Assembly (NCBI GenBank): GCA_021234155.1
Contig: JAJEKV010000399.1
Span: 1 to 64,000, forward strand
Direction of reading: 5' to 3'
From: Isoetes taiwanensis
Taxonomy: Eukaryota; Streptophyta; Lycopodiopsida; Isoetales; Isoetaceae
Length of the DNA: 64,000 bases
Shown here in pieces: positions 11,690 through 62,212 of this stretch; the first letter of the stretch is position 1, and each line of letters begins with the position of its first letter. The notes under the pieces were generated by a model. It was not told the DNA's origin and ran no database searches. It saw nothing but the letters and a program-made list of their open reading frames with translations. Made by a program: the position numbers and the translations under genes.

Positions 11690-12360
11690 GAACCATTTCA
11701 ATGGCCTAACACCTTCCATCAACCCCCAAAGCAAGTCCAAGCAATGCTACATTAGCACCGCGAGAGAAGAAGGCGAGGATCGAGTCATGTACCTCTCGGA
11801 CCAAGACGGGGGAATGAGCCTCAAGGTAATATCGAGAAATTGCCAAAGATATGCTGATTGCTCTTCCAACTGAGGAGGATAACAAAGGTCGACCTTTCTG
11901 GATAGCAAAAGTACTCGATACAGTCAAGGAGGAAGGCTTAGTCACTAAACTCAAGATTCATTAGCTTGCAACGCGCTCAGAAAATGCTTTTGAAGGTAGA
12001 TATGGGTTAGAAATGAGAAGCTAAGGAAAAGGGAGAAAGTCCAAGAAAGTGGGTTGTAGGGAAGAGCTGAACCTTAATGACGTGACTATATTGTGCTATG
12101 ATTTTAAATTGAAATCTGACAATCGTCTACGCCAGAGGACTATCAATTTACTTAAAAAGGTTTGTAATTACGAGGAAGAGGATGAAGAAGGAAGTGGTGG
12201 TGGCAATGCTTCACCATCTGTTGATAGTGATGAGGAAGACAACTCAAGCACTTCCTCGAGTGACAGTGAAAAAAGTGAAGGTGATGAGGAAGGCATAAAT
12301 GAATATGATGACGTCCTGGATCCCTCCTTCATCACTCCTCACACTTTTGTACATAACTGA
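11690..12360 (+). pseudogene. C-terminal fragment of a DUF7869-type transposase, copy 1
   Basis: Joined across several frame breaks, the translation carries RVMYLSDQDAG, ALPTEEDNKGRPFWIAKV, KEEGLVTKLKIH, FEGRYGLEM and LNDVTILCYDFKL, then an acidic Ser/Asp/Glu-rich tail (last open frame 12,049-12,360). The order matches the C-terminal part of the transposase at 37.4-37.9 kb (VMYTALDAQ, AVPVDNDESGKP, KVLEVTREDGIPTQLKVQL, FGGSYTLEM, SEVKVLAYDF, acidic tail). The RNase H-like catalytic core is absent. It is therefore a non-functional remnant carried in the repeat unit. Confidence 0.65.
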
Positions 12361-17598: not shown

Positions 17599-19005
17599 AT
17601 GGATAATATAGGTATGTAACTTGCTTCAAATTCGACGATGTCAGTGTGTTACTATTTAACAATTACAATTGATTCTCATGCAGCTTCATCTTCAAATCTG
17701 TTTGATGAGTCCGAGATGACCATAGGAGAGACAGAACTATATAATCTAATGTTGTTTACAATGATCATGGTTTACACAGTCTTCATGATGCCGCAAATGC
17801 GTATCCTATACAATGGGAGGCCCAAACGATCTAGAACACGAACATTACAACGAGATGCGAGAATGCATGATGACATGATGATGCATACCATTCTTTCCAT
17901 ATTATTGGTTAGTCCACACACGTCATGGTGGGTGAAACCAAGGAGCACTGTGTGGTGGGATAGATTTGTACTTGATGTATTTGATGATCAACGTTGGAAA
18001 GAGAATTTTAGAATGACCAGGGAAACATTTGATTGGTTATGTAATAAGTTGGCTCCCATGATCAAGAAGAAGAGTACCACTTTTAGGAAACCTCTACCAG
18101 TACCTATTCGCGTTGGGGCAGCATTGTACAAGCTTGTGAAGGGGTGTGACCTCTTAGAAGTTTCAGAGCGGTTTGCAATTGGAGTGAGCACAAGCTCAGT
18201 GGTGCTTAAACAAGTCTGCTATGCAATAAACACGAAGTTGGGAAGCAAAATTAGATGGCCAAAGAATAATGAACTTGTTCAGGTTGAAGAGGGTTTTAGA
18301 GATGCAAGTGGATTACCAAATTGTTATGGTGCTATTGATTGCACGCATGTACAGATCATTCGCCCTCCTGGATTTGGTGGTTCGGATTATTATGACAGAA
18401 GACAAGTCCATTCTATCATTGTTCAAGCTGTATGTGATACTAGTAGGAAATTCACTGATATATTTGTTGGATTTCCAGGTTCCACACATGACGCACGTGT
18501 TCTTAGGAATTCAGGTTTAGCACAAAGGGCAAATGCAAGGAAAATCTTGAGGGAGCCAACTATGCTCTTAAATGGTAATTATATGTTGCATCCTTATGTT
18601 GTTGGAGATAAAGCGTATGCAGTTTCATCATGGATCATGGCTCCATATGCTGGAAATGTGGCTGGTCTGACGCACATTCAGAATTTGTTTAATGAAAGAC
18701 ATGTGAGGGCAAGACTTTTCATTGAGCAAGCATTTGGCATACTAAAAAGAATTTTCAGCTGTTTAAAGTCAACTCTATGTGAAGACGTTGCATTTGTGCC
18801 CGAGATGATTTATGCTTGTTGCGTGCTTCATAATGTATTATTGGAAAGAAAGCTAATTGATGTAGAAGAAGAGCTGCGTGCATTAAGATTAGATGAGGAT
18901 AGTGACGAAGAAGATGATGAGGAGGGTGGAGCTGCAGCACTGGTCTTTGAAGATGGTGAGACAATGCGAAGACATATTGCAGAATACCTTGTCTTCAACA
19001 CATGA
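17599..19005 (+). CDS. PIF/Harbinger DDE transposase (HARBI1-like)
   Basis: This enzyme cuts and reinserts the element through an RNase H-fold DDE active site (DDE_Tnp_4 family). I read two exons. Exon 1 is 17,599-17,611 (Met-Asp-Asn-Ile), with donor GTATGTAA. Exon 2 runs from 17,684 after acceptor CTCATGCAG. The join is in frame and replaces the unspliced start at 17,638, giving about 444 residues. Catalytic residues are visible: Asp in AIDCTHV (about 223), Asp in GSTHDARV (about 274) and Glu in RLFIEQAFGILKRIF (about 352). The family's GD-X-AY block appears as VGDKAYAVSS. A helix-turn-helix-like region (LLEVSERFAIGVSTSSVV) precedes the core and an acidic tail closes the protein. There is no internal stop, so it may be functional. 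The SANT partner lies 2.7 kb upstream in the same direction. Confidence 0.92.
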
Positions 19006-21495: not shown

Positions 21496-21779
21496 TTGGA
21501 AAATGCGGCTGGGGCCAATCCAATGCCGCCATGTGGCAACACGAAGCAGAACAGCAGGTGAAATCAGCAGAATACATGGTAAGAAAAATAGAACAAGAGC
21601 GTAAAAAAAGTCAGAACGGTGAGTAAACTTGTACGATTTTCAGAAAAAAAGAAAAAAAAGAAATAAAAAAAAAAAAACAGTGACACGTGTCGCGATACTT
21701 CTTAGAAGAAGATCGGATGTGGTGGAGTAATTTCTTTCTCGAACAGAAAATTGTTGTACAAAACATAGCTCTAAGATAG

Positions 21780-22462
21780 TTGCAAGAACCATTTCAATGG
21801 CCTAACACCTTCCGCCAACCCCAGCACCAAGCAGGTCCAAGCAATGCTACATTAGCACCTGCAGTAGAAGAAGACGAGGATCGAGTCATGTACCTCTCGG
21901 ACCAAGACGCAGGAATGAGCCTCAAGGTAATATCACAGAAATTGCCAAAGATATCTTTGATTGCTCTTCCAACCGAGGAGGATAACAAAGGTCGACCTTT
22001 CGGATAGCAAAAAGTTCGATCTGATCAAGGAGGAAGGCTTAGTCACTAAACTCAAGATTCATTAGCTTGCAACGCGCTCAGAAAATGCTTTTGAAGGTAG
22101 ATATGGGTTAGAAATGAGAAGCTAAGGAAAAGGGAGAAAGTCCAAGAAAGTGGGTTGTAGGGAAGAGCTGAACCTTAATGACGTGACTATATTGTGCTAT
22201 GATTTTAAATTGAAATCTGACAATCGTCTACGCCAGAGGACTATCAATTTACTTAAAAAGGTTTGTAATTACGAGGAAGAGGATGAAGAAGGAAGTGGTG
22301 GTGGCAATGCTTCACCATCATCGTTGATAGTGATGAGGAAGACAACTCAAGCACTTCCTCGAAAGTGACATGATGAAAAAAGTGAAGGTGATGAGGAAGG
22401 CATAAATGAATATGATGGCGTCTGGATCCCTCCTTCATCACTCCTCACACTTTTGTACATAA
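21780..22462 (+). pseudogene. C-terminal fragment of a DUF7869-type transposase, copy 2
   Basis: It is the counterpart of 11,690-12,360. Here the first part is open (21,780-22,007; RVMYLSDQDAGMSLKV, LPTEEDNKGRPF) where copy 1 is shifted. The acidic tail is shifted where copy 1 is open. Neither copy has the catalytic core. Confidence 0.65.
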
Positions 22463-29461: not shown

Positions 29462-29634
29462 GTATCCCTTCTACGTGCAGTTCATATTCTCCTACATATT
29501 GCGTGATATCTTGTCCATTCTAACTCTATTCTCTATGTTCTTCTCATTTTCCTTTCGACATTTCGGATGTCCTATCATAGTTGTTGGCGATCAAGGTGCA
29601 CATCTCTAAACTCCTATTGGGGGAATAATGTTTC

Positions 29635-29665
29635 AAACAAGGTTTAAAATGAAACGCACTTATTT
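29635..29665 (+). repeat. Left terminal inverted repeat of the methyltransferase transposon
   Basis: It pairs with 38,367-38,397. The inner part GTTTAAAATGAAACGCACTT is exact at both ends. The left end also folds on itself (AAACGCACTT ... AAGTGCGTTT). Confidence 0.85.
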
Positions 29666-30862
29666 AAGAAGTGCGTTTGAAAGATTCCTTTATAAAAATT
29701 GGAAACTTGAAAAAAATGGACAAAATAGGGAGCAAAATAGATTGTTGAGCAAATAGCATTCGAAATACCCCAAAAAAAGCAACATTTTTGAAGCCTTTTC
29801 ATTTTTTAAGAAGGGCAAAAATAAAAAAAGCTTGTTTTGAGGAGAAAGACATTACATTTAAAAACTCATTAAGTATTTGTTGTTGAAAATAGAAGGAAAT
29901 ATAGTTTTGTGTTTTTGCAAGCTTAATATAAGTACTAAGAAAATCAAACATAGAAAAGAGAAAGAGTCTGAAATCATGAATCAAAAAAAGAATTGTTCTA
30001 ATTAAGCATTGTTGAAGAGACAAAGTTTTCAGTTGAGAAATCTTCATCAAAATATATTAAAATTCGTAACACATAGATTACAATGAAAGATAGTTTAAAA
30101 TGCTGTCTGTATAAATTTATACGGGAGGTGGCTCTTCCCAGTCCACAGGACTCTCTCTCCCCTTAGGATCAGTCTCTTGCGAGGTTATAATAGCAGAGAC
30201 GCCCCCTTCTGATTCCAATGGTACAGGTACAGGCTGTTTCTCTGGCTCAGGCACCACAGGCTCCAGATCGACGAACTCCACCTCCTCATTTCTTCTTCCC
30301 GTAAGTGGAGGCTGGATTTCTGTATATGTGCCTTTTACATCGCCAAAGCACCATTTTTTGCTCCCAATTCCTCGTTTTCATCAGGAAAGGATTCACAAGA
30401 GCTTATCCTGGTCCTGATGAAACTTATTTTGTCCGGGTCTATGTCGACGGAGACAACATTGGCGCCCCTGCTTAAGGGCGCAAACTGCTGTGGTGCCTGA
30501 GCCAGAAAATGCGTCTAAGATCCGGCCCCCAGGTATGAAAACCATCAGATAAATTATTTATAAGTCGTTTGTGGTTTTCGATAATGGGACACCACATTTT
30601 GTCTTTGTGGGTCTCTTAATTTTGCAAAACCAGGGAACCTAAACGCATTGCGGGGAGGAGTCTTTTTCATTTGGCGATTAAAGTGAACCATGGTTTTTTG
30701 GCGCCCTGTTTGTAAAACCCTATGTGAAAGTGCTCAAACAACTTACTAGCGCGGACCACCACCATGACCCTTAACGCTTGTTTTAAGCCCCTGCCAAACA
30801 AAGACAACAATGAAATATTAGTAAAATAAAAACAAGGAAAATAAGTTAGCTCAAGTGGTGTG

Positions 30863-31050
30863 GCGGTATAAATTTATACCGGGGTTGCCTTGCAGATAAA
30901 TTTATACCAGGTTGCCTACGGTATAAATTTATACCGGGGTTGCATTTGCGGTATAAATTTATACCGCTGGCCGCAGTCGTATAAATTTATACGACATTGC
31001 CTTGCTATATAAATTTAAACCTTAGGGTTGTGGTATAAATTTATACCGTG
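30863..31050. repeat. Palindrome array A (seven copies)
   Basis: Seven copies, some degenerate, of the 18 bp perfect palindrome CGGTATAAATTTATACCG are separated by about 5-15 bp of unrelated sequence. They lie in the intron between the last two methyltransferase exons. A single extra copy is at about 30,108-30,124. Confidence 0.95.
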
Positions 31051-32117
31051 GAGTTACTAAAAAGAAAAGCGTTAAATGTTAAGCTTACCAAATGCGTTTT
31101 CAAAGCCGGCATTACGCATACTCCCATAGGTTTAAGCAATCACATTGTTTGTAGGTCCGAATGGAAAATGATGACCCTCCGTTAGCGGATAAGGTGACTT
31201 CCTTTAGGCCTTCCAAAAGAGTGGACTTGCACGCGTGAAAGCCTCCTCGTCAAAAGCTACCGTCCTTAATTTTGAAACCATAGGGAATATCTGCAATGCA
31301 TAATGTGAAGTTCTGCTTCTCCAAAAGTGTCCCCAGCCTCGTGCAGTCACCCTCAACAACTCTGTACATGCAGTCCTGACCAAACGTTGTAAATCTTTCA
31401 TAAGAAGTGTCAAAGTCGCTAGTGGCGACCTCCTTTCCCTCGCTCGGGATTGCCTTAAGTCTCGCCTCTCTTCCTTGGCCCCACGAACTGGGTTTAAAAA
31501 TCAAATGGGAGCCCCTTTTTCTTGTTCTCAGAAGAATATTGTGAGAAAAAGGCACAAACACAGAACATATTTTTAGCAAAACTTACCCAGCCACTAAAGT
31601 TAACAGCGTGCTCTCTAATAATACTATCAGTGGTACAACTTGGGTAGAGAAGCTTGCACTCCTCCCAGTCCTCAAGGTTTAGCTGCTTCATTAACTCGGC
31701 CTGGCAGGTAACAATGTCTTTCTGACTGCAAAGAGAAACATGTTGTAAGACCAGAAAATGTAGAAGAAAGACGGCATTGCAAATGTGGCTTACGTCTTAG
31801 CTTCCTTGGCCATTTCGTCTAATGTAAATTCCTTGGCCACGACTTTTTCCAAAAGGCGAACAAAAATTTCTTTGCTTTTTAATCCCTGTAACTGCGTCCA
31901 GGGTACAATGCTCATATTTTTCTGTTTTAATTCTCCACCCTTTTTGGTTTTTTTTTCGAGCGGGCTTGCTTGCTCTTTAAGCTCACCATCTTCGAACATA
32001 CAAAAAATTCTTTCTTGAAGATCCCACACCTGTAAATGGACAAACGCCATTAGTTTAGTGTTGCTTAGCGTAAGAGAATATGTTGCAGTCTACTTTCTAA
32101 ATACGCATGGTGTGTAG

Positions 32118-32388
32118 TCACGGTATAAATTTATACCGTCCCTGGACACGGTATAAATTTATACCGCGACTAGTCGCGGTATAAATTTATACCGCCTAGT
32201 CGCTGTGATAAATTTATACCGCGTCTCGCCATATGATATAAATTTATACCGTGCCCGCCACGGTATAAATTTATACAGCGACTAGGCACGGTATAAATTT
32301 ATACCGTGCCCGGGCACGGTATAAATTTATACCGTCCCTAGTCGCGGTATAAATTTATACCGCCACGGTATAAATTTATACCGTGCGA
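32118..32388. repeat. Palindrome array B (ten copies)
   Basis: Ten copies of CGGTATAAATTTATACCG or close variants lie in the intron between the ParB exon and the next exon. Several extend beyond 18 bp, for example AGTCGCGG...CCGCGACTAG and GTGCCCGGGCAC between neighbours. Confidence 0.95.
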
Positions 32389-34065
32389 AGGCACTTGTAA
32401 ACACGCTAAACACTACAAAACATAGAAAGAAGAGCAGCTTCTTACTTGACCATCTCTGAATGCCAGCTGAAAGTAGTTATCGTATTGCTTTACTGCCATA
32501 ATGGGCTTCTTATCATAGTCATAGCTGAGGCAAAGATCATCCACGCAGCTTCTCGAAGCTCCTGCAGCTTGTTCTTTTGCTTTTTAAAATCCTCTCCATA
32601 CATTTGTTTAAATTCCACGTACTCACGGTGCATGAAACGGATCTTGTCTATTAAACTCATTTTTAATCTGAAGTCATTGTCGAGATTATGACTCACGGCA
32701 ATGACTTTTGCTTCTTCATCTGTTACACCAACGTATATATGTGCTTCTACGCTCTTCCACACTTCGTTACGGCTTTCCTCTTTTGCTAGTTCTTTCCTTG
32801 CCTTGTAACTATGTGTGCCTCCAAGAACGTAGTATGTGTAATCTTCGAAGTCAGCCTTCTTGTAATCTTTTAGTTGGTTGCACTGACTCCTGTCCACCAT
32901 AACAACTAGTGGCGACACATGGGCATGAGGATTTCTTCTCATTCTTTGTTTCAGTATAGCCACATGTGCCGTGATCTGACTTAGGACTGTAGCACTCTGA
33001 CCCCATCTTCATTTTTAGGTGGCCTCTTAATGGTGCTCAATGTCAAAGAAATAGTTTGCTTTAGCAGTTTAGTGTCATTCACCCGCTTGAGAATAGCACT
33101 TGATTTATCTGCAGGCTTCACAACAATATCTGCTCCAGGGGCCTTCTGAAGAGCTTCTGTTGACTCCTCTATAGTCAAAGCCTTTGTGCCTCTAGATTTC
33201 TTTTTTGTAGGAGCCTGTGTATCTACTACGAGGGAATGCTTTCTACCCTTTCCCTTTGTTACCACTGGTTCCTCTTCCTCTTCTTCTTCTACTTCCTCGT
33301 CCTTCTCTTCAAACTCTTCGATAGGAATTCGGTACCGTAGACCTTTGACCAACTTTGTTTCTTCAAGAAAGCACAACCGACATTAAAATGTCCACTATAT
33401 CCCGTAATGCAGGGGTTAAGTTAGGAAGATGACGGTATAAATTTATAACGTAAAGACACTAAACAATACTTACATGGCCACTCTTGTAATTGTCAGCCAC
33501 GTACTCTTGCACATCTTTGGGTTTGCACATGCTTATTCGAAGCATTTTACTTTCAAGAACGTAGAAGACTTCCCCCTTGTCATGCATGCACTTCATTAAG
33601 ATTTCATCATCGACCTCTGTAGCAATAAGGTTGATAATTTCGCCGGCAGGGTAATAATCGTCACTCTTGTACTTGCCCTTCCCTGATTGATGACACAAGT
33701 AAAGGTACGCCTCAGTGGGTTTGCTCTCTCTTGCACCCACCGTGGACGCGTACCACGCCGGGTCTTTCATTAGTATATGCGTGGCTCTATTGGTGCAGCC
33801 TTTGATGGCCCGGCCCTTGTTTACAAACCTGATCCTGGGGCTGGAAAAAGCGTAAAGAAGGCCATTTTTATGCAAGAAACAGAACCTTTTTCGACCTTTT
33901 GTACCATAAAAACAGTAAAAATAGAGGCGAAAAGAGCATAAAATCTACACTAAATTATCACTTTATTTGTGTTATTTAAGCTTAAAACGCAAGAATATTA
34001 CTGAAATTTTAAGGTTTTTGACACTTCTTTAAGCACTAGACACCAAGATTCCAAAATGGTTTCGG

Positions 34066-34434
34066 ATGGGGTATAAATTTATACCGCTGGTTAATGAAGC
34101 GGTATAAATTTATACCGAACTGTAACACAATTCCGTATAAATTTATACCTCGGGGTGCTGCTCGGCGGTATAAATTTATACCGCTCCAAAACACCGATCG
34201 GTATAAATTTATACCGCTAGGTGCCTCGGCGGTATAAATTTATACCGATCAGAATTGAAGCGGATAAATTTATACCGCTCGAGCACCCGCGCAGATAAAT
34301 TTATACCGATCGAAACTATATCGGTATAAATTTATACCGCGTGTTCTCGAGCGGTATAAATTTATACCGCAGAAGTGCTCGGCGGTATAAATTTATACCG
34401 ATCCGTAACCATATCGGTATAAATTTATACCGTA
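34066..34434. repeat. Palindrome array C (twelve copies)
   Basis: Twelve copies lie in the first methyltransferase intron, spaced about 9-14 bp. Variants lose one or two outer bases (CGGATAAATTTATACCG, CCGTATAAATTTATACCTCG) but always keep ATAAATTTATA. One isolated copy (CGGTATAAATTTATAACG) is at about 33,432-33,450 in the second intron. Confidence 0.95.
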
Positions 34435-34505
34435 AGCTTACACTCTAGCAGCGATTAAAACAAAAGAGAAACTAGAACAAGCGGGTAGTAGACTTACGTG
34501 GCCAT

Positions 34506-34904
34506 GGCGAAGATAGACCCGCCAGATAGACGCGTTCAGAGAGCAAATAGGGGGGGTATATAAGCCGCACTGGCGTATACTTCGACCGGCTGCGTGATAT
34601 AGAAAATAGGGTGGTGGCGGCTACCGGCTAAGTACCTCTCGCTAAGTGCCGCTTCATATAGCTTCTCCATAAAGTTTTCAATACAAGTGTCCGTGAGTTT
34701 TCGTGATAAATTTATACCGCTCGTTTCTATGTTGCCCTCCTCGTATAAATTTATACCATCTCCAGGTATAAATTTATATATCGGCCATTTTAAGTTTTTC
34801 TTCCCCTGTATAAATTTATACCAACTCAGATAAATTTATACCGTATGGCTCGAGAGAAAAAGAACCGCAGAGCCTCAACTCCGCTCACAGCTTCCTCCCT
34901 CGCA
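34506..34904. promoter_or_regulatory. Head-to-head promoter region with palindrome array D
   Basis: The region lies between the ATG codons of the methyltransferase (34,505, minus) and the transposase (34,905, plus). On the minus side GCTTATATACCCCCCC (about 34,552-34,567) places a TATA-like box about 50 bp from the ATG. On the plus side five palindrome copies (34,703-34,845) contain TATAAATTTATA, a TATA box on both strands. The last copy is about 60 bp upstream of the transposase ATG. The layout suggests shared or mutually linked control; this is inference. Confidence 0.55.
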
Positions 34905-37900
34905 ATGGCTTTCACACCTCCTCAAGCGGACACCGGGAAGTAGCCACGTAATATTCTACATCCGACATTCCAACACCCAGCTCTGTTGAGTTTGCTCCAG
35001 CAAGACCACCTCGGCTTCCACCACCAGTTCAATTTACTCCACCACAACCTGCTCCTGAACGTCGTCTGCCCCCACCAATGCGTTTCACCCCACCTCGGGC
35101 TAGAGAGGTCGGACTACCTCCTCCAATTCATTTTTAGTAAGCCCATAGTCCATCAGAGGCTCCCCTCCACGGAGGCAAATCACACCAACTCCATCCATTT
35201 TCGCTAAATGGTACTACAACAAGTGGGGGAGCCAAATGACACGCCAACTCCCCGTGTTTCTACGACACTTCAGAGCTGGTCAACTACGCCACCAGCCCTC
35301 GACATTTTTCCCAGAGAGGGAAAGCACCTCCCCCGTGCCTTGCCCACATCAAACCTCTCAAAGATCTACAAGTACACCTCATGTTGATCTCTCGGGCGAA
35401 GAAACACCTCATGTTGATGTCTCGGGACGAGGACCTACCAAAGCCACAAGACTCCATGTTCAATTCAAAGCCCCCGAAGTAAAAATCTTAAGCGTAACTT
35501 ACACAAGACAAAGCATGTACAACCAAGTTAGAAGAAAGAAACTCATGGATCTAGGCTCACTTGCGGGCAACACATACAAAGTAATCTTTGTTGTTCTCAA
35601 CGTTGTTTGCTTAAGATTGGACTAAAGGAATTGAGGTTGCTTCGCGGATAGTTACAGTTCAATGACTCTGCTAGACCAAAGGGGCTACTTAGCCTTCAAT
35701 ATTAGGCCGATGATGGTGAGAAGTTTACTTACATTACTGGTGGCCACACCGCTCGGCCAAACGCCTTCAAATTGATTCATGCTTTAGGCGCAGACGACTT
35801 GACCGCCTTTGAAGAAAAGGCTTGACAAGAATCCGGGCATCAATGACTACCGCCATTCAGAGGCATAACCGTAATTCATGCTCTTCAATGTGTTTCTGGA
35901 TGGAAGGTTTCTTTAAGGAGTCTTGTGAGAAACTCCCAAACAGCCCTATGTACCACTTGAGTGACAATTTCACCTAAAACAAGAAGTCTGATAATTATAA
36001 GGAGATGTGTGTTGAGGTCGAGAACGCTTTTGCGCTACTCTTACTTTTCGCGGCTCGAAAAAGAGTTTTTCGGTGGCCATTCCTAGAAAGCATAGGATGT
36101 CTGTTTGTGCTACATGCTCTGAATTAAAAGCTCGGGAGACAAAATGCAAGGACACTTCACACTAAAAGTAAGCTTCGGGGCGTGTTCTTGCCTAGTTCTA
36201 CTTAAAAGTAGGTTCTTTCCTAAACATGTTTTCCTTTCGAGGATGCATTGAAGGAGAAACCTGAACAAGCACGAGAACAACAATCTTTGGAAAGGAGAAA
36301 ATTGACAAAACATAGGAAGAAAACCTAATGGAACAACCACTCAACTACATATCGGTTTGTTATTGATGGAATGGACCGAAGAAGACCACCCTACCACATT
36401 TTGTCAATGTGCCTAAGGATCTTCTTTGAAGAAGATTTCATACATCCGCATGTTGTTGGTGCTATGGTATTTAATGGAAAACTATCTTGCAAGGCATTTT
36501 TGAATTATCCAAACATTCATGCTGATCCAAATCTCACTATCACAATATTGAATAAGCTTCTTTCCAATCTAGAACATATACCGCTTGGTTCTCGTATCTT
36601 CACTAGATAACACGACAAGGGAAAATAAGAATCGGCGTTGTTTGCTTTCATTGTTATGCTAGTAGAGAAACAAATCTTCAAGAAGGTGAAGATTGGTTTC
36701 CCTGCTTGTTGGTCATACACACGACCAAATTGATCGGATGTTCAAGAGGTTCTCTAAACGTCTTGCTTTCGAAAAAAAGCTCTAAGCCCGCCAGCCATGA
36801 TTGAGGTCATCCAAGATTCCTACAATCCTCGCCCGGACATCGAAGTTATTGGAAGAAACTTATGATTTCAAGGAATGGATTTTTGAAAGAGATCAACTAG
36901 GTCACTTTGTGCTATTGAGCCCTTGAGAAACATTACATTCCAAACATCGGATCAAAATTTCACTTGTAGATGGCAAGGCCATCTTACAAGGAAAGAAATA
37001 TGCCACATCCTTGCAAATTGGCAGCCAGTATGTATTCAATTCATTCAACATCCCCAATACTAGTTCCATGCTCTCTGCAGAGCAAATGCCTCTAAAAAGC
37101 TTGAAAGAAATCACAAAGAGTAAAAAGGAGGGAAGAGCATTTGACTCAAATAAATCATTGGATTGTATTGAGACAAGTATTCAAAGATCCTGCTCTAACC
37201 ACTTTGGGAGGCGGATGCTTTATGGTGGCCTCAATTTTTTTTCTCGACAACGTGACATGTTGCAAGCTTCATTACAAGGTCGAAGACCCGGTTACATTCA
37301 ACCGGCCATCTAGGCAAACCCTCCCCGTGCAAGTTGAGAATCAAGAGGAACATGTAGAGATATTGGCTAGCTTTCGGATGAAGATGACAGAGTCATGTAC
37401 ACCGCCCTAGACGCACAAACACAACAAGTTGCTCGAGTATCACGGTTCGGTCCGAGATTGAGAAAGGAATGCTCATAGCTGTCCCGGTGATAATGATGAG
37501 TCGGGGAAGCCATTACGGCTAGCTAAAGTCTTGGAGGTAACAAGAGAGGATGGAATTCCCACTCAATTAAAAGTGCAATTGGATGAGAACGATTGCGCCA
37601 ATGCTTTCGGTGGGAGTTATACTTTGGAGATGGTAAAAGCAGAGTGGGAAGAGAGCAAAGTCCAAAGCAAGTACTGGCTGTCATAGATCTATCCGAAGTG
37701 AAGGTTCTTGCATATGACTTTGTTCGACTGCCGCTAATAAGTTACGATATGGTCACTCAAACTTTAATAAGGTCAACATGTGGATTAGACAAACAAGCCA
37801 AAAGGTGGCCAAAAAAGATGATGATGAAGACTCACTTGTAGGCGGTGAGGAAGAAGATCGTTCGAGTACATCCAGTCTTTGAGAGTGAAGCCGAGGATGA

Positions 37901-37925
37901 AGGCTCGAAAGTGATCGGGGAATAA
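34905..37925 (+). pseudogene. RNase H-like (DUF7869-type) transposase, frameshifted
   Basis: The presumed transposase of the 29.6-38.4 kb element. The N-terminus is proline-rich (FAPARPPRLPPPVQFTPPQP). A block with KILSVTYTRQSMYNQVRRKK (about 35,490) also occurs in the 49-54 kb relative as DVLSVTYTGQS. The catalytic region follows: FVIDGMDRRRPPYH (about 36,358), DPNLTITILNKLL (about 36,522), LDNTTRENKNRR (about 36,605) and VGHTHDQIDRMFKRFSKRL (about 36,704). The acidic and His residues in these motifs are the putative metal ligands. The C-terminal part has YDFKEWIFERDQLGHFVL, a second domain (MLIAVPVDNDESGKP ... SEVKVLAYDF) and an acidic tail ending at TAA 37,923. Several stops and frame breaks interrupt it. 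The name DUF7869 is from memory; the motif set is what I see. Confidence 0.7.
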
Positions 37926-38366
37926 ATGAGTCGAGGATGAGATGCATCCCGATCTTGCTGCAAAATGTAAGTTTGTCCGATGACTTCGAACATGTAAAAA
38001 CGAGAAAAGTGCGGTGATGATTGTACGTCAAAATATCCTATATTTTTGACAATTTTGTTCATAATTTTGTACAATTTTCACAACCTTGAATATATCACTT
38101 CTTTGTCACTCTACTACCCTTGCTATTTTTTTTATTGCCCCTTTTTTGCTACACTTTATAAAAGTAACTATTTTTTGTTCTAGTTTAGGAGGATGAAAAT
38201 TGCTATTTAAAATTTTTGCACGAAAGTTATGTTCAATCAACCCCTCAAAAATGGTACCTAAATTACTTAAATTGTCACACCTGTCACAAAAAAATCTTAA
38301 AAATGGACTTTTTTAAGGGAATTTTAGGGAATCTTTCAAAGATTCCTTTTGAAGTGCGTTTCCAGC

Positions 38367-38397
38367 AAATAAGTGCGTTTCATTTTAAACTTTGTTT
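38367..38397 (-). repeat. Right terminal inverted repeat of the methyltransferase transposon
   Basis: It is the reverse complement of 29,635-29,665, with a mismatch between the AAACAA block and GTTTAAAATG. Inside it, GAAGTGCGTTT and GATTCCTTTT mirror the left end. Confidence 0.85.
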
Positions 38398-38437
38398 TCA
38401 CAGTCAGCTTCTAAACTGCAGCATTTTGTCATTGCAG

Positions 38438-50345: not shown

Positions 50346-53300
50346 CTTCCAAAAAATCCCAGAAAAGACAAAAAATTCTATAATATGGCGCCATTTTTGT
50401 CTTCTTTCTTTTGGCATTTTTCTTGATTTGATATGTTGTTCTGATTTGTTTTTGTGTTAAATGCAGGTTCCAGTTTCCTCTATACAACTTATTCGTTGGG
50501 AGGACAATTATTGCTAGGGGCCACCTTTTGAAAAGAACAACTCTTCATGGCAAGGATGTGCACCCCATGGCAATAGAAGTGACAGAATCTGTGGTTCCCG
50601 CCACTGACCTGCCAGTCCCTTGGGGGTGGCAGATACATTGAACAAGCAGTAGGAACATTTATTGAGTGGCCAAAAAGGGATATAAAACCTGTTGAGTGCC
50701 CTTCAAGTGAAGATACGTCTTCGGGAACATCCCTTCATTTGCCATCTTCAGAGGATTCATCTAGCAGCCCACCATCTGTTAGTAGCCCGCCAGACATCAG
50801 CTTCATTACCCACTTTGGTGAATCAAGCAACACTGCAACAACAGAGGAGGATGAGACAGTAGAGGAGATTGGAGCAGAGGAGAAACTAGATGCCCATCTT
50901 GGCCTCAAGATGTTCAAGCTTGAAGTTGAGGCAGTCAACTATTCCAAAAAAGATCTACTTGGTTTGCCGTGCTACTCTTCATTCCTGCATCGGGTCTAAA
51001 TATTCGGAAGCAAACTTGGTCTTTAGTGATCCTCAGGATGCTATAGACGATGAATTTCTTTGGGGGGTATCAAGGGTCGGTCTTACAGTGGGTAAGATAA
51101 TGGATCCAACTGGGAACCAAAATATGAGATCATGTCATGCTTGTGCAGAGAGGCTGCCTACTGCAAATTTAATATCTTGGGAGAGTTGTGATGTTTTGCT
51201 TAGTGATGGTAGGACAATTTCACAACATTTACAAGCTCGAGCTGCACTTGAAGAGGATGATTTAGGAGGTGAATGTCTGGAAGCTGATGTTGAGAAGCAA
51301 TTCAAGAGAAAAAGGAAATATACATATGTGAAGAGGATCGGGAGGGAACCAAGGGGGATAGCAAGGAGGAGAGGATGTGTTCTTCCAAGTTAATCAAGAG
51401 TGCTCTAAAATCAACATGCTACAAGGAAGATTGTATCAAAAAACCGAGCCAAGAACAAGTATGTGCCTTAAGAAAAGAATTTTATTCTCAATCAAGTAGT
51501 GCAATGAATTACGCTTGTTTTTGATGTGTTGAGTGTAACTTATACAGGGCAGTCGGAGGCAAAAGTTGTGGTCTTTGTAGTGGAATGCTGTCAATTCGCA
51601 TGGCGCACGGCTTTAAAAGTTGCTCAATCTATGTTTTATAATTGGAGGAAGAGGTTCGAGTTAGGTGGAAAACAGGCAGAGCATGGTAATACAAGCTCTA
51701 AGAAGCCTAGATCTGTGACACTAGCTACAGAAAGTGTGCTTGATACCTTCATTAGTGAGAATGCGGAGAGCATTCCATATAGAAGCAAAAATGGAAAGGA
51801 TGATATAAGGGAGAATGTTCGCAAACTTCCTTCCATCCTTCATAAAAGAGCATACATAAGGAAGTGGGTGCCGTGGTGGAAGAATTGACAGGAAAGAGTG
51901 TAACCTTGCCCTCTTTTTACAATATTTGGAAGAAAGAGTTTCAGACGTTAGCATAGCAAAAAATATAGCATTCTCCAAGTGTAACGTATGTGTTGTCATC
52001 AAGCAAAAATTGGAAAGAACAAAAGACACAAGGGAGAGGCACAACCTCTCAATTCAACGACGGGCACATATGTTGGAACAACGTTCCTGTAGGAGTCAAT
52101 ATTGGCATTGGCATGCATTATCACATCGTTCACCAGAAAATCACCTTTGCATAATACATGACAAGATGGATCGGGTCAAAACACTCACACCAAGAAGTCA
52201 TCATCTCGCAAAGTCTGTTTGGAGAGGGGATCGCTTAAAGAGCAGCTTGACGGCGCATTGACACATGGTCATGGTGGACGGGCTTATGGTCATTTCTCTC
52301 TTGATCTTTGGAAAGATGACTCAAACTTTCATGTTGGATCACTTTCTAGGATCCTACACTATCTTGAGTTGCTGGACGAAGACAAGTGTGGTGATCTAAA
52401 GAACTACAGATTGCAAATTGATGCAAGCCGTAAAAGACACTCGACCACTGCAGCATAAGCTGGCGCAGATACAAGAGATGATGCCTTCATCTTCTAGTGC
52501 CAACTTAGAAGGTTTCAATCCTCTTCCTCGAAATCTCTACTTGCAGTTGGATAATGCATCAGGTCAAAATAAAAATAGATATGTGTTCTCCTACCTCTCT
52601 TATTTGACATGGCTTAAGGTATTCGATGAGATTCAGGTTGGCTTCATGATGGTTGGGCACACTCATGACGATATCAATGCATTGTTTGGGAACTTTTCGA
52701 CGTTAATGAGTTCATCGGATGCTCTAACTTTGTCTGAGTTGCTTTACTTGTTTAGCAAGTGCAATGCAAAGATTCCTATTCCATATTTTGTGGATGAGGT
52801 TCCAGATTGGAAAGGCTTTGTCAAAGGATATATCCCTGATAAAGACCAACGTCTAACAGGCCATACCGACCCATTACTAGTCCGATTTAAAATGGATGGG
52901 AAATAGCCCATTATGCAATATAAGATGTGGCCAACCCATAAATAGTAGATTCCAGAAAAAGGAATAAGAATGTGGAAGGAGGATGAAAATGGTGAGCCAA
53001 CATTACCAATAAGGGTGCCTAAAAATATCCCTCCAACGAAGACATTAAAAGATCTCCCTGGCCTGGCAGACAGCGTCAGCAAGTACATAGCATTATGGAA
53101 CTCCTTCTGCAAAAATCAAGAAGAGAGTGTGTTTGCACGACAATACAAAGCAACTATGGATTACTGGACCGAGATTCTTTTATGTTTGGAAGATGTGTCT
53201 CTAGGACGACCTCAAAATGATAACTTTTGGTTGCGTACAAGGCAAGAACCTCTACAAGCTGCCTTTACTCCAGAGGTCGATGAAGCCGCCGTGCTTGTAA

Positions 53301-53731
53301 AACCTTTGCCTTCTTATTGTGGGCCAGCAGATGGGTGTCCAGTGTTACCTATGGATGAGTTTAATCCTCATGCACATGTTACGAAAGATATATATTTTTT
53401 AGTTCGACCTGGAGACGATGAAACTCCAATGTGGTTGAGCTATACAGAAGAAGATGCCATCTTGGACCTAGAGTCTACCAATTATGGTCATATTTATGTA
53501 TCATGGTGGATGCCTATTGGTCGTGACTATACAGGTTGCTTAACTAAACGTTAGCGACCCAACTTAATCCCAGCTCCATCAAGGTATGAGAAGTTAGATG
53601 CTATACATTATGCATGGGATGCAAATGGCAAAAGACTAAAGACTATTCAGATTCCAAAATACATTGTTGACATGTGGGGGTACATACCATTAGCTAAAGG
53701 CTCTCAAAATCAATCATGTTCTCGATAATCA

Positions 53732-55892: not shown

Positions 55893-58800
55893 ATCACTGC
55901 AATTGGCCAGATAATCTCTTGGTCAAAAATGATTGAGTTCCTTGCTTTCCAGATCCTCCAGAGGAGTATGTAGATTCTCCAGTCCTAAGGATCATTAGGA
56001 AAGAGGATTTCAACCATAGGGGTAGAGGACAGGTTGGGAATTTGGAATTCCTCAGCAGCCAGCTCAAGTACCCACTCTGCCCATAAACAGTTCTTGAACA
56101 AGTGGTTTTCATCTTCAGCTTCCTGTAAACATCTTTCACATAAATTAGAAGCAGCCATGTTCAATCTATATCTTTTTGCATTGGTAGCTAAAGCCTTATG
56201 CCAAAGTTGCCACATAAAGGCCTTGATTTTGGGGTTAATGGGAGAGTTCCACATGAATTTTAGATTTGCCATACATCTCTCCTCAGTGATATCCCATTTG
56301 GTATGAATAGAGATGGTGTAGCTTCTTGTCAGGAATCTGTAGGCATTTTTAACCCTATATCCTGAGTTACCATGAACATGCCATTGGGTTTCTTGGTTGT
56401 GCTATTCTCCCTCAATAAGACAACTTCTTATGGTCTGGTAGAGTCTCTCATGATCTTCACCCATGTCTGCAAGAATTGAGTTCTGAAATTCTATAAAACC
56501 CCCATCATTGAAAAGATGAGAAATGTGAGTGATGCCTCTATCTGACCATTTTCTGCACTGAATAGGAAAATGCATAGCCAAGCAGATGTCAGGGTTATTT
56601 AAAATTAGAGAGGGATTCCAAAAGATTGTTTGATCCTTAGAAAGGCCCTCCTTCCAAGAATACATCCTGCTGACTGCTTTCCAGGCTCTGATCCATTTTT
56701 TAATGATACCAGGAGTATTATTAGGAACCTTGAACTCAAAGAATAACCTGTCAGGGAGATGCATGTTCACATTTCTCCACCCAAAGGGTTTACACTTAGC
56801 AAGGTAATGGTTAATAAGCTTTGACACAGGGTGGTTTATTTCATCATGGCCAGCTCTATAAATATATTTGGCTGCCAGGGCCAACCCTTGTTTCTCAATA
56901 TCCAGAACTCCCAGACCACCATGCTTCCTTTTCTTCATACATTCTTTCATGGAAACTGGGATCCAGGTTCTATTACTATCCCCACTAGCAATAAATCTCC
57001 CTAAAATGCCTTGGAGGTTAGAGATGACCTTTTTAGGAGCTAAAAGGATAGAAGACTGGTAAACATGAGAAGAGGAAATGACAGAATTGGCTAAGATAGC
57101 TCTTCCATTTTTGGACAGATATTTACTGTTTAAAAGATCAGCCTTTCTGTGGAACTTCTCAATAATATCACCCCAAAGATCACTAGCATTAGTTCTTAAA
57201 GCAAAAGGAATACCCAAGATTTTGGATTTAGTAATTGGAGAGAGATACTCACAGCCAAGGGTTTGAGCAGTTTGCTGCCCCTTTACCTGATTTCTTGCAA
57301 TGAGCTTGGACTTGAGAGGATTGATTTTACATCCCGAACAGTTACCAAAATCTTGGAGAACAGTTTGAGTGTTTGTGATGGAGTTCTCTTCCATAGTGAC
57401 AAAAAGAAAAGTGTCATCTGCAAAGTGAGCATTAAGGAAGAAACATGCATCTAGATTACCAGGGAGCTTAAGTCCGACAATTCTCTTCTCCTGGTCTGCT
57501 TTTTTGAAGGCACAATTCAAGGCTTCCATAATTATAAGGAAAAGAAAGGGGGCAAGAGGACAACCTTGCTTGACACCTCTCTTTATCTCAAAGAAAAGGC
57601 TGCATTCTCCATTGATCAGGACAGAAGATCTTGAGTTGTAAAGAATGGCTTGAAAAATACTTATCACTTCTTGGGAGAACCCCATCTTTTGACAACATTT
57701 GAGGAGGAAATTCCAGCTGACCGTGTCAAAAGCCTTAGTAATATCCAGTTTTAGCAAGGCAATGTCCTGTTTAGTTTCTTTGGCCCAATGCATGCCTATG
57801 ATAGCAGTGGCTACATTATCTAAAATGGATCTATCCTTTAGGTAAGCACTTTGGGTGTTGGATATGGTAAGATCCAGAATAGGTTTCAGTCTAGAGGCTA
57901 TGGTAGCAGAGATGATTTTGTAAATAACATTGGTGAGGGATATAGGTCTGAAATCAGAGAAAGTTTCAGGAATCAAGGAAATAAAGCTGGTATTAATTCT
58001 GCAATCTAGATTCCTGAGAAGTAAGAATTCATTGCACACATTAGTAACATCATTTCCAATAATATTCCAATTTTTTTAAAGAATTCGACTGGGAGGCCAT
58101 CAGGACCCGGAGTCTTACCATTTTCCATACCTGATACGTTTGCCCACAATTCTTCAATGGTAAAAGGAGCTTTCATGCTTTCATTCTGCTCATCTTGAAT
58201 AGATCTTTGAATCTGAATGAAATTGTCTATATCCTCTTCCATAGCAGTAGGAGAGGTTCCCATTATTCTCATAAAATGATCAGTAGCAGCCTGTTTAAGA
58301 TCTTTGTCCTCAGAGATGGGATTGCCATTGACCTTTACACTATAGATCTGATTTCTCTTAATTCTCCCTTTGGCCTTGATGAAGAAATACTTGGAGTTAC
58401 TCCTCTCATCATCCTTAAGTTCCCTAATTTTTGCTTTTAGCTGCCATCCTTTTGCAATTCTGAGTTCCTCTCTTTCAACCTGAATTTTTATATTCTCTTG
58501 CTGATCCAAGGGAGTTTGCTGGAGCTGAGTTCTCAAATCCATCAGATGCTGCTTTTCTTGAATGTAAATTTGCTTGCCCCAGACTTTGAGCCAATTTTTA
58601 ATATTTTTGGCAGTTCTCACCCACCATTCCATCCATCCAAACTGATTTCTAGGCTTAGGGGTCTTCCTATAAACCTGTTCAAACTCATGAAGAAAGGTAG
58701 TCTGATCAAGAAGTGAGACATTTAACTTGAAGTAGGATTTTCTCTTGGCATTTGAAGTATCCCCTCTTATTTCCAGCAACTGGGGAAAGTGATCAGAGAT

Positions 58801-59487
58801 TGTATAGCCATTTAAATTGGAAACCCTGTCACATTGGTTCCAAAGATTCTCACTGACATAAAAACGGTCATGAAGGCAGTGGATAGGGTCGTCAATTCTC
58901 TGATTGAACCAGCTAAAAGTATTTGGTTGGGTTCTAACCAGTTTAAGATCATGCATGGAGATTAAGTGCCCCCAAGAATTCTGCTCTTGATTGAGGAGAG
59001 GTCTAAAATTAGTACTCCTCATGAAATCATGAGTGACCATGTTAAAGTCACCAGCAAGAATGCAGTTATCATAAGGAATATTAGCTAAGCTATTTCTAAT
59101 TGTATTCCACATAGGACTTCTCTCACCAGGCTGATTATGAGCATAAATGTTAACAAAAGCAAACCTTTTGGTTCCGAGATCTCCATGGAGAATTTGCCAT
59201 CTCCCACAATTGCCATGCATCATCTGAATGTTGGAGATATTTAAACTGTTTTTCCAAGCTATAGAAATACCTGCAGAACTATTATTTGCCCTAATAGCCC
59301 AAAGTCTAAAACTAGGGGGAAGAGTGTTAGCAATAAGTCTCTCAAAGTCATCATCATGAAGCTTATGTTCCTGGAAAAAGATCATATCAGCATTAATGGA
59401 TGAAATACAAACCTTTAGCCTATCTCGTTTGACATTCGAATTAATACCTTGGAGATTCCAAGATACACATCTGAAGTTAATATCCAT
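55893..59487 (-). pseudogene. LINE ORF2: endonuclease-reverse transcriptase
   Basis: ORF2 nicks target DNA and copies the LINE RNA at the nick. Its ATG (59,487) overlaps the ORF1 stop. The endonuclease (59,480 to about 58,750) shows RCVSWNLQGIN, FFQEHKL (catalytic Glu), ILAGDFNMV and NGYTISDHFPQL (catalytic Asp-His). Reverse transcriptase follows with FRPISLTNVIYKIISATIAS, LLKLDITKAFDTVSWNFLLK, GVKQGCPLAPFLFLI and the catalytic HFADDTFLFV. The zinc-finger-like region (MWQLWHKALATNAKR ... CERCLQEAEDENHLFKNC) closes it. A one-base loss in an A run near 58,072 and TAG stops near 56,402 and 55,983 break the frame. With these joined the product would be about 1,200 residues, the usual plant L1-like size. 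Confidence 0.9.
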
Positions 59488-62212
59488 AAAAATCAGTTTT
59501 TTTTTGGACCCTTGAACTTCTCCTTGAGACTTCAAAGGTTTGTTTTTTATTTCTCTTTTTCCTATTGGATGTGATCAATTCCCAAGATCCTTTCTCTTCT
59601 TCTTTGTCGAAGTCTCTTTCAATTACTTGTTCTAAGAAGTGCTGTTCGGAATGGTCACTGTCATAAACATAGTGGATTTCTTCCAAAGCTTCTCCCGTTA
59701 TAGCTAAGGCTTTGTCTTCCTTAATCTCTTCAATTTCCTCAATAATCACATTATTTGCCTTGATATCTTCAATTTTTTCAATAATCACATTGTTAGCACA
59801 GCAAATCATAAGGGGAATGATGTTTATGGGATCATCATCCTGGGTGAAAGCATGCTACGGTGTACCACTTTTGGAACCCTCAAAAGTACCTACACTGGGT
59901 ACTTTTAAATCTGGTACTTTCATAGTTTTCTTTCCATTAAAATCAATTGAAAGTTTTTGAATTGAAGGTCAATAACATGTCAACCTACAGTATTAAAGGA
60001 TAACAATACCATTGGAGACTAAAATGAATGAACTAACTCGCAAACTTATTGTTTATTGAGACATTTGTGCGAGTTCCTAGTACCCAGTACTGGGTACTTT
60101 TCTGGGTAGTTTTGGACTCCCTAAAAGGTAATTTATATGGTACACCCTAGCATGCTTTCACCCTCCTTTTGTTTGCTAGTTTCTCCATTTTTGCAAAAAT
60201 CTTCCTCTCCCTCTTTCTTGCTGTTGTTAGGCTTTTTCTGAACCCAAACCTGTTTAGGCTGGGAGGGGGGGGGGAACATTGGGGCCTTTCCTTTATCAGG
60301 GGGAGCTTTATCTTCCTTATATTCCTTCATGACAGGAATTTTGGAGTACTTAATTCATGTCTTCATCAATTCTGGTGCCAATGAATTTCTCCCACTTAGA
60401 GTCAATTTCTTTCAGAATGCAGATAGAGGGGAAGTCGGTTTGAGGAATAGAGATATCAATAACCTCCCCCAGACAGCCTCCTATTGCTGTAAGGTGATTG
60501 CGAGTCCAGAACTTAGGGGGAAGATTTGGGCAGGAGACCCAAGTAGTAGTAGCAACACCAGAAAAATTGCCCGGAATATAGAGAGGATTCCAATCCATAA
60601 TGTAGACCGGGCAGTTAGCTATGGAAGAGATTTTTCTAGTGAGCATAATCTTTCTGTGATTACTATCTCTGCATAAGATTTGGTAGGTTTTAGAGTCCAT
60701 TCTAAGGATAGAAAGGATGGGGATATTAATGGCTCTATTAAACCAATTCTTAACCTCACTGATGTTAGGACATTTAGCAGGAAAGTGAACCATAATCCCA
60801 TTAGCAGAGTATTTTACTTTAGCCTCATTATCCTTTATAGCAAAAAGATCAACCTGAGACCCCTTAGTGTAAGTGTCATTTTCCTGTTTTTTATGACTTT
60901 TTTCTTCCCAATCAGAATTTAAAAGAACATTTTTGAATGAAGGGGACGTATCATTTAATTTGTCATACTTGCCCATAGTAGGAATCTTTGACTTGAGCTT
61001 GGAATCTGAGATCTTGGTTGACTGTTTGTCCAAGTTGAGGCTGACTATTTTTATACAGTTGGGACAAGGGCATTCTCCTGCATCTCGGGGGTTGAAGTAT
61101 CCATTGCTGTCTCAGATCATACAGTACTTGGTTGGTTCAAGCTTGTGCATAACTGTATCATGATCTACTTCCACATTCTTTAGTTCCTCTGCAGCTATCA
61201 AGGACAGATCTTCTTTGAATTTTTCCTTGAATTCTATTATCTTGTGGTCATCTGCACTTTTCCAGACTCGAACCAGTTGGAAGGTAGCCTTAGATTTCCA
61301 TTCCATGAGTTCTAGGTCCTCTGCCAGGTCCTTGGTTGTCTGGAGTAGGTCAGTCATCGATTTTTTGAAGACTTGGTTCTTGAGGCTGCAACAATCTTCT
61401 TTGGAGTGCCCGGATTTGACTCGAATCATCTGATAGAGCAATAAGTCGAGGTCTTGGAGTCTATTTATCATATTCCAGACCAGATCCCTGTCATTGGCTT
61501 TCCCCTCGGCATATTGTCTCTCCAGTCTAGTGATTTCTTGTTGACAGGCAAGAATCTGACCCTCTTTCTTGATACCCATACATTCAATGGTTGCATTTTG
61601 CTGATATCGAATGTCGCAGTGAGTTCCCTCATCTTTTTCCATGTCAGATCGTTTTTCTCTTCCAGTTTTAAGATGAGCTTCCAATCTCTACTCTCCTGTG
61701 TAAGAGACTCATTGTCATCCGGTTCATAGGCGGATCTACTACCAGAGGTTTTCCCTTTGCATGCTAGCTGCTTAGATCTCATCTTGGAGAAGTAGAATGT
61801 TTATATCTGGACCCAAAGACAATTCTTGACGAGAAGTAATTCCGAAAATTTGACAACAGAGCCTAAGGACGCTAGGCTCTGCTTCAAGAACCAAGATTCT
61901 ATCTGTGAAGTTGTGAGTCCTAAGAACTGTTTCAAGACACCCGGAAGAGTTGATGTTCTGGATCAAATTTCTTCCCTCAGCCGAGAACGAAAGGATGCAC
62001 AGGATGTCTCTGTCACAATCTTCGCGAAAATTAAAAAAACCTAAAGTAAGCCTATCACTAGCTGCTGTAGAAATCCAGATTTTAATGATTAGCCTGGCTT
62101 GGGGTACAAGGTTTGCTGCAGGGGCTAGATTCTGGAGAATAGCAGAGGTAAGAACCTCTGCCTCATCCATCGAATCCGTCCCGTTTCCCGAGGCGCCAGC
62201 AAGTTCGCCCAC
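59477..62212 (-). pseudogene. LINE ORF1: gag-like protein with DUF4283-type region, interrupted
   Basis: It starts near 62,212 (MGELAGASGNGTDSMDEAEV). After shifts it continues through a long coiled coil (61,684-61,112; QQEITRLERQYAEG, LLQTTKDLAEDLELME), a TGA at about 61,110, and a CPCPNC motif. A nucleic-acid-binding domain of the DUF4283 type common in plant L1-like ORF1 follows (61,033-60,350; VHFPAKCPNISEVKNW ... TTTWVSCPNLPPKFWT ... IGGCLGEVIDI). The rest is Lys/Pro/Glu-rich (60,330-60,165) and resumes after the nested MITE (59,844-60,161) to TAA at 59,477. ORF1 proteins bind LINE RNA and act as chaperones. The TATGGATATTAA junction makes the ORF1 stop overlap the ORF2 start. Confidence 0.7.
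59844..60161. mobile_element. MITE of about 318 bp nested in the LINE
   Basis: Terminal inverted repeats of 24 bp with one mismatch begin GTGAAAGCATGCTA, then (C/G)GGTGTACCA. The interior is non-coding, with small repeats of GGGTACTTTT and GTACCCAGTACTGGGTAC. It interrupts ORF1 of the LINE and is therefore younger than the LINE. I could not separate a target duplication from the palindromic GCATGC in the ends. Confidence 0.78.

Follow-up and report, generated by a model that had tools for sequence, protein, structure and literature searches.

What does a plant DNA transposon do with a DNA methyltransferase gene of its own, and which DNA sites would such an enzyme find? The question is raised by an element at positions 29,636 to 38,396 of a 64,000-nucleotide stretch of Isoetes taiwanensis DNA (contig JAJEKV010000399.1, positions 1 to 64,000; hereafter the window). 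For this locus, an initial annotation had proposed a transposase gene and a BAH-ParB-methyltransferase gene between inverted ends. We found that the window element is a decayed member of a large DNA transposon family, that transposase and methyltransferase genes are paired head-to-head far above chance, and that the methyltransferase exons are under strong, long-term purifying selection. Additionally, palindromes are arrayed in the methyltransferase introns and the upstream region, and the palindrome core follows the ParB-domain tree. From these sequence comparisons, we consider it slightly better than an even chance that the ParB-like methyltransferase binds the palindromes of its own family and marks the element, probably against silencing.

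Borders and copies of the element

The two flanks of the element in the window were joined without the element and searched in the genome. The search resulted in one empty site (C1027:6043333-6043581, 96% identity), which spans the junction and carries TTCA in a single copy. In the window, TTCA flanks the element on both sides. The single TTCA in the empty site against two in the window therefore sets the element at 29,636-38,396 (8,761 bp), with a 4-bp target site duplication (TSD). The border features are as follows.

29632..29635, no strand: left TSD copy TTCA (empty site with one TTCA)
29636..29665, plus strand: left terminal inverted repeat AACAAGGTTTAAAATGAAACGCACTTATTT (arm comparison; related ends genome-wide)
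38367..38396, minus strand: right terminal inverted repeat (arm comparison)
38397..38400, no strand: right TSD copy TTCA (empty site)

The inverted ends seen in the initial annotation were recovered as 31-nt arms (29635-29665 and 38367-38397) that are 97% complementary. At up to three mismatches, the end sequence had 1,075 + 1,105 matches in the 1.66-Gb genome, a total of 2,180 related ends in both orientations; the reversed control had none in either (0 + 0). Many full copies with a short duplication had been named in the initial annotation as support for a transposon family; eleven copies with both ends were 8.7-9.6 kb long, and nine of them had a perfect 4-bp TSD (the exceptions were L002 and L013). 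Inverted ends, target duplication, many copies and an empty site, as expected of a DNA transposon, were thus all found. The family is Sola-like, judged by its target duplication and gene layout. A 4-bp target duplication is described for Sola2 in the available passages of PMC3627910, a feature that is not unique to Sola.

The genome contains 118 GRAS-domain matches, of which 34 span nearly the whole domain. To our knowledge, GRAS domains are restricted to plants and close kin, and the genome was read as that of a land plant (or close kin) because of these 118 matches.

The methyltransferase and transposase genes

Window exons homologous to the methyltransferase were located by tblastn on the minus strand at 30,138-33,830, the strand on which the initial annotation had placed this gene. 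Listed from the last exon to the first, they are as follows.

30138..30787, minus strand: last exon E6 with motif I DAFSGSGTT, frameshifted (tblastn in two frames, translation; PF01555 in better copies)
31125..31524, minus strand: exon E5 with motif IV-like ADIPYGF (tblastn pieces in more than one frame; translation)
31587..31721, minus strand: putative small exon E4, approximate borders (open frame, by eye)
31796..32029, minus strand: exon E3 (tblastn, 88% over 78 amino acids)
32446..33407, minus strand: exon E2 with ParB/Srx-like domain YYVLGGTHSYKARKEL, frameshifted (tblastn, 96-99% in the main pieces; profile comparison)
33462..33830, minus strand: exon E1, N-terminal domain (tblastn, 81%)

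In two better-preserved copies, the PF01555 profile matched the last exon at 4e-11 and 8.3e-12, and a divergent copy gave a match of 1.1e-18 for two joined exons. The nearest solved relatives were MboIIA, RsrI and CcrM (5.3e-11 to 2.5e-8). Motif IV (ADIPYGF) stands before motif I (DAFSGSGTT) along the protein, as in the beta class. The enzyme is predicted to be a beta-class N6-adenine or N4-cytosine DNA methyltransferase with a deviating motif IV (DIPY). The window gene is decayed by frameshifts or stops, and among the copies fetched none was found to be intact in both genes. The methyltransferase exon queries gave no further match elsewhere in the window.

The ParB/Srx-like part of exon E2 was compared by profile with four phage ParB-like proteins, which resulted in a probability of 81% and an E value of 1.3e-5; the ParB-like assignment is moderately supported. 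Against the PDB, the same part gave weak matches to sulfiredoxin (E 1.4-2.4), which presumably shares its superfold, and unrelated matches scored better (best E 0.0094). Back-translated patterns of the ParB exon gave 84 matches in viral and 156 in bacterial contigs; none was confirmed as a relative, and distant relatives escape such patterns. Exon E1 had no Pfam match in the exons of two subfamilies; the BAH label first given to this domain is unsupported.

On the plus strand, the transposase-like gene was confirmed through better-preserved copies, in which DUF7869 (PF25273) matched at 2.2e-52 to 2.5e-54 and open frames reached 600 amino acids. The window exon matched the same domain at 1e-4 with 22.4 bits, which is below the curated cut-off of 26. 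The window gene is broken, with tblastn pieces in several frames and stops.

34748..37980, plus strand: decayed transposase gene (tblastn pieces; DUF7869 match within 36,329-36,610)

Elsewhere in the window, a second, different DUF7869 gene lies at 52400-53554 on the plus strand (2.1e-32 over 52400-52906). Two fragments on the plus strand, 11836-12165 and 21687-22266, resemble the C-terminal part of the element's transposase at 28-44% identity and probably come from other related elements.

Pairing of the two genes

After four secondary pieces were removed from 110 rows, 106 transposase places were considered. Among the matches listed, to which all pair counts here refer, at least 32 of the 106 places lay no more than 12 kb from a ParB exon; 31 of these 32 pairs were divergent. 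In an unselected test, 150 listed places for PF25273 were compared with 150 for PF01555, the latter being those scored out of 1,444 candidates. All 17 pairs within 8 kb were head-to-head, as the initial annotation had described for the window. Within 12 kb, 20 of 22 pairs had this layout, with about 0.3 pairs expected by chance, and within 20 kb 22 of 24 pairs had it. From the window and 24 loci fetched via one gene, 22 of 25 contained parts of both genes; the pieces of L014 and L023 lacked a transposase match, and L015 lacked a methyltransferase match. A ParB-like methyltransferase beside a transposase thus stands in a land-plant transposon family with many copies and a perfect 4-bp TSD in nine of eleven bounded copies.

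Palindrome arrays in introns and upstream region

The window contains 32 matches to GGTATAAATTTATACC at up to two mismatches, whereas 0.02 are expected. The palindromes have the frame GTAT-N6-ATAC. They occupy three methyltransferase introns (E5/E6, E2/E3, E1/E2), the region upstream of E1 and the beginning of the transposase side, with periods of about 28 and 31 bp in the arrays. The array is absent from the initial annotation.

30865..31047, no strand: palindrome array, intron E5/E6 (motif search)
32122..32382, no strand: palindrome array GGTATAAATTTATACC, period about 28 bp, intron E3/E2 (motif search, spacing)
33434..33449, no strand: isolated palindrome with one mismatch, intron E2/E1 (motif search)
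34070..34431, no strand: array upstream of E1 with a palindrome period of about 31 bp (motif search, spacing)
34703..34822, no strand: looser palindromes where the transposase side begins (motif search)

At 30108-30123, the methyltransferase frame terminates within a palindrome (GTA TAA), and the motif provides the stop codon.

Coding matches leave free 37% of the length of eight bounded main-family copies, and 225 of their 239 core sites fell in this part. The spacers carry almost no sequence information (494 sites picked by the 10-bp core). At the isolated intron site, in 17 copies picked by the core, GT directly preceded the core in all 17 and AC directly followed it in 15; divergence was 20% over the 4 + 4 flanking bases together and 24% in the wider surroundings. 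Chance palindromes were ruled out by the expected counts and by reversed controls.

The palindromes also occur in elements with the same ends and another interior. Ten exact left ends were sampled from the first 16 listed. Four matched the last methyltransferase exon. Five had a different interior, with about 65-95 bp common to the window element and with palindromes present (L029, L030+L038, L031, L035 and L037). The remaining end, L034, had about 1 kb of other sequence inside it and no palindrome in the 1.5 kb seen. One of the five was read through; it is 2.2 kb long and non-coding, with nine core sites and seven perfect 14-mers, and no perfect target duplication was found for it. The possibility that the ends are mostly miniature inverted-repeat transposable elements was rejected, as none of the ten sampled ends had a partner within 1.5 kb, although one is the 2.2-kb non-coding element. 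Occurrence of the two genes apart in other copies, which the initial annotation had named as evidence against its reading, is mostly contradicted by the 22 of 25 loci with parts of both genes, although the five of ten left ends with a different interior show that not all copies hold both.

Family-specific palindrome cores

The same GTAT-N6-ATAC frame was found with three cores in three families, in methyltransferase introns in all three. Genome-wide, the AAATTT core of the main family had 12,556 places (reversed control 17), TCCGGA 3,720 (control 0) and GAATTC 64 (control 11).

The GAATTC core belongs to a divergent subfamily (L017, L021, L023 and L025) with a ParB domain about 65% identical (three measured); the L017 transposase is 65-72% identical to that of the main family. 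Each copy has five GTATGAATTCATAC sites (in L023, one of the five is GCATGAATTCATAC), three in intron E2/E3 and two upstream. Mixed forms also occur, as does one GTATAAATTTATAC in three copies. Of the 64 GAATTC sites, 50 were listed: 22 of these are no more than 8 kb away from a ParB exon of this kind, another 15 are partnered at the subfamily spacings, and 13 show neither relation. A listed site accompanies six of eight such exons.

Six PF01555 places beyond the window's family were fetched, and all six belonged to a third group, with ParB domains 51-56% identical to the main family (five measured). Two further PF01555 places (C1037:14962111 and C1059:1168217) fall in fetched GAATTC-family copies, and C1040:8035338 adjoins a main-family ParB exon. 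Five of the six third-group loci contain GTATTCCGGAATAC or CpG-decayed forms of it, mainly between E3 and E5, with decayed forms only in L048. The TCCGGA palindromes of L044, L045 and L047-L049 have a CTGG or CCAG centre in 17 of 28 cases. At L046, a DUF7869 gene stands head-to-head 5.6 kb away.

When the cores are placed as four labels on a tree of 17 ParB domains, three changes suffice, which is the minimum, and none of 200 shuffles was as low; this test is inflated by near-identical copies within groups, and there are only three motif types. Two sub-branches of the main family, with ParB domains 86-92% identical, have the AAATTT core in common. The palindrome core thus follows the ParB-domain tree.

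Two other explanations of the palindromes bear on this result. They may serve the transposase or a host factor as binding sites in transposition or transcription, with the methyltransferase unrelated to them. The transposase and the methyltransferase diverge together between subfamilies, so the motif could track either, and same-ended elements with another interior carry palindromes as well. However, most palindromes stand in methyltransferase introns or in the upstream region that both genes share rather than beside the ends, and ParB-like domains are natural readers of palindromes. We regard this explanation as unlikely, though not negligible. The arrays may otherwise be ordinary minisatellites that spread along with the element and have no function. 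Their regular period of 28, 31 or 42 bp fits this idea, as does a decay rate equal to that of the surroundings in four different-interior copies. However, the motif is kept while the spacers are almost free of information, and the recurrence of one frame with three cores in the methyltransferase introns of three families makes ordinary minisatellites highly improbable.

Selection on the coding exons

The ratio of nonsynonymous to synonymous substitution (dN/dS) was 0.04-0.12 for the ParB and motif-IV exons in the 12 main-family pairs for which a synonymous distance could be computed. It was 0.17-0.28 for the motif-I exon, in copies bearing one or two stops, and 0.25-0.39 for the transposase. 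Near-identical copies of the GAATTC family gave 0.09-0.54, with very few changes. In comparisons across subfamilies, synonymous sites have reached or almost reached saturation, and the methyltransferase exons show a nonsynonymous distance of 0.09-0.45. The low dN/dS and the saturated synonymous sites together indicate that the methyltransferase was kept functional over long times within elements.

This selection bears on what the protein may do. It might be a sequence-specific binder with an inactive methyltransferase domain, acting against silencing by binding alone, as VANC proteins of VANDAL transposons could. Motif IV is DIPY in both subfamilies compared, as an inactive domain would allow; however, DIPYGF and DAFSGSGTT are unchanged between these two subfamilies, and dN/dS is low in the exons that carry them, so that we hold an inactive domain to be quite improbable. 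Alternatively, the mark could restrain or time the element's own transposition, or protect its DNA, with no escape from silencing. Dam methylation restrains or times Tn10 transposition in this way. The anatomy would be the same, and strong selection suits any self-directed marking. However, the candidate targets lie at the upstream region and in the introns, not at the ends, which suits expression control over end protection, and a restraining or protective mark appears rather improbable.

Proposed mechanism

In the mechanism that we favour, the ParB-like part would bind the GTAT-N6-ATAC palindromes of its own family. Binding would place the methyltransferase on the protein's own element (in cis) and on related copies (in trans), and the mark may keep the introns and the bidirectional promoter open despite host silencing. 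With the 6-bp core changing along with the protein, each family would mark only its kind. The scheme would be that of VANC proteins and their motifs in VANDAL transposons, plus an enzymatic mark. A fuller version, which we advance tentatively and put somewhat short of an even chance, is a self-addressing system in which the core serves as a family password and a mark of N6-methyladenine (6mA) or N4-methylcytosine (4mC) across the introns and the bidirectional promoter shields or activates only the element's own family, including non-coding followers that bear the password. Self-modification to escape silencing, which the initial annotation had inferred, thereby obtains a concrete candidate target in the family-specific palindromes. 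As a whole, that earlier interpretation is partly supported.

Several observations weigh against the mechanism. Regarding the enzyme, motif IV is DIPY instead of the usual DPPY, so its activity is not certain. Regarding the ParB-like part, the phage comparison proteins were weak query matches (E 2-10) named by annotation, and two of them were scanned without any Pfam match, which is why the support is moderate. The only relevant Pfam hint for this part, DUF6551, which we take to be kin to ParB, was below its cut-off. Structures predicted from single window sequences had a predicted local distance difference test (pLDDT) score of 47 for the ParB-like part (140 amino acids) and 34 for the first-exon domain (122 amino acids). 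Regarding the palindromes, the third-group methyltransferase locus L046 (C976:452200-454800) has none in the 2.6 kb seen. The CpG-to-TpG decay at TCCGGA suggests that host 5-methylcytosine reaches many such sites. In the four different-interior copies, two alignable palindromes have diverged at least as fast as the sequence around them (8.3% vs 7.6%). Finally, co-divergence alone does not tell which protein reads the palindrome; the transposase remains a candidate reader because it also differs between families.

The palindrome core, differing in step with the protein, makes the self-marking idea directly testable, with three defined 14-mers and about 16,300 counted places for 6mA or 4mC. The origin of plant 6mA signals is debated, and many copies of candidate 6mA- or 4mC-writing enzymes in a land-plant genome bear on it.

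Other features of the window

Two further features lie outside the element. A long open frame at 17620-19005 on the plus strand matches DDE_Tnp_4 at 2.4e-35, and we take its superfamily to be PIF/Harbinger-like. At 56402-59574 on the minus strand, two long open frames resemble, by eye, the reverse transcriptase and endonuclease of a long interspersed nuclear element.

Comparison with known systems

The initial annotation knew of no plant transposon with this gene pair, and this holds only in part. According to the available passages of PMC12477816, the transposon Sola1-1_Ec32 of the brown alga Ectocarpus encodes a protein with a ParB-like part and an N4C/N6A methyltransferase opposite its transposase, and transposons of green and red algae are known to encode similar proteins, which possibly bind and modify their own transposon. 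The gene pair of the window is therefore of an already known kind, and the PF01555 domain, the ParB-like match of moderate strength and the head-to-head pairs all agree with it. Unlike the 21.5-kb Sola1-1_Ec32, the family described here is from a land plant, is about 9 kb long and comprises several divergent families. Neither target palindromes nor a land-plant case turned up in a limited search of open-licence literature. The same passages of PMC12477816 name no target motif, whereas here three palindromes track the protein clades. The self-marking idea for algae thus came, in these passages, without a named target; in this genome likely family targets are visible, with thousands of copies in two families.

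The closest parallel for the palindromes is the VANC system of Arabidopsis. In VANDAL21, VANC targets are located within introns of VANB and VANC and in the region upstream of the transposase, and they vary between related elements (PMC5735166, available passages). The arrays described here are likewise in introns and upstream regions and are likewise family-specific (available passages of PMC5735166 and PMC10398659). However, VANC proteins are described there with DUF1985/DUF287 domains, and VANDALs are MuDR-type elements, whereas here a palindromic motif is combined with a methyltransferase domain. Neither DUF1985 nor DUF287 was among the Pfam matches of the exons scanned. In a land plant, the present family may thus parallel VANC while carrying an enzyme of bacterial type.

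Other mobile elements also carry DNA-modifying enzymes. Among retrotransposons, DIRS elements with Dam-like adenine methyltransferases and others with 5-methylcytosine methyltransferases are likewise mobile and methyltransferase-bearing. They differ in being retrotransposons with other methyltransferase classes, and the available passages of PMC5890265 mention no ParB-like domain. Fungal DNA transposons encoding TET/JBP enzymes resemble the present family in having a DNA-modifying enzyme beside the transposase and differ in their oxidising enzyme and their fungal hosts (PMC12730594, available passages).

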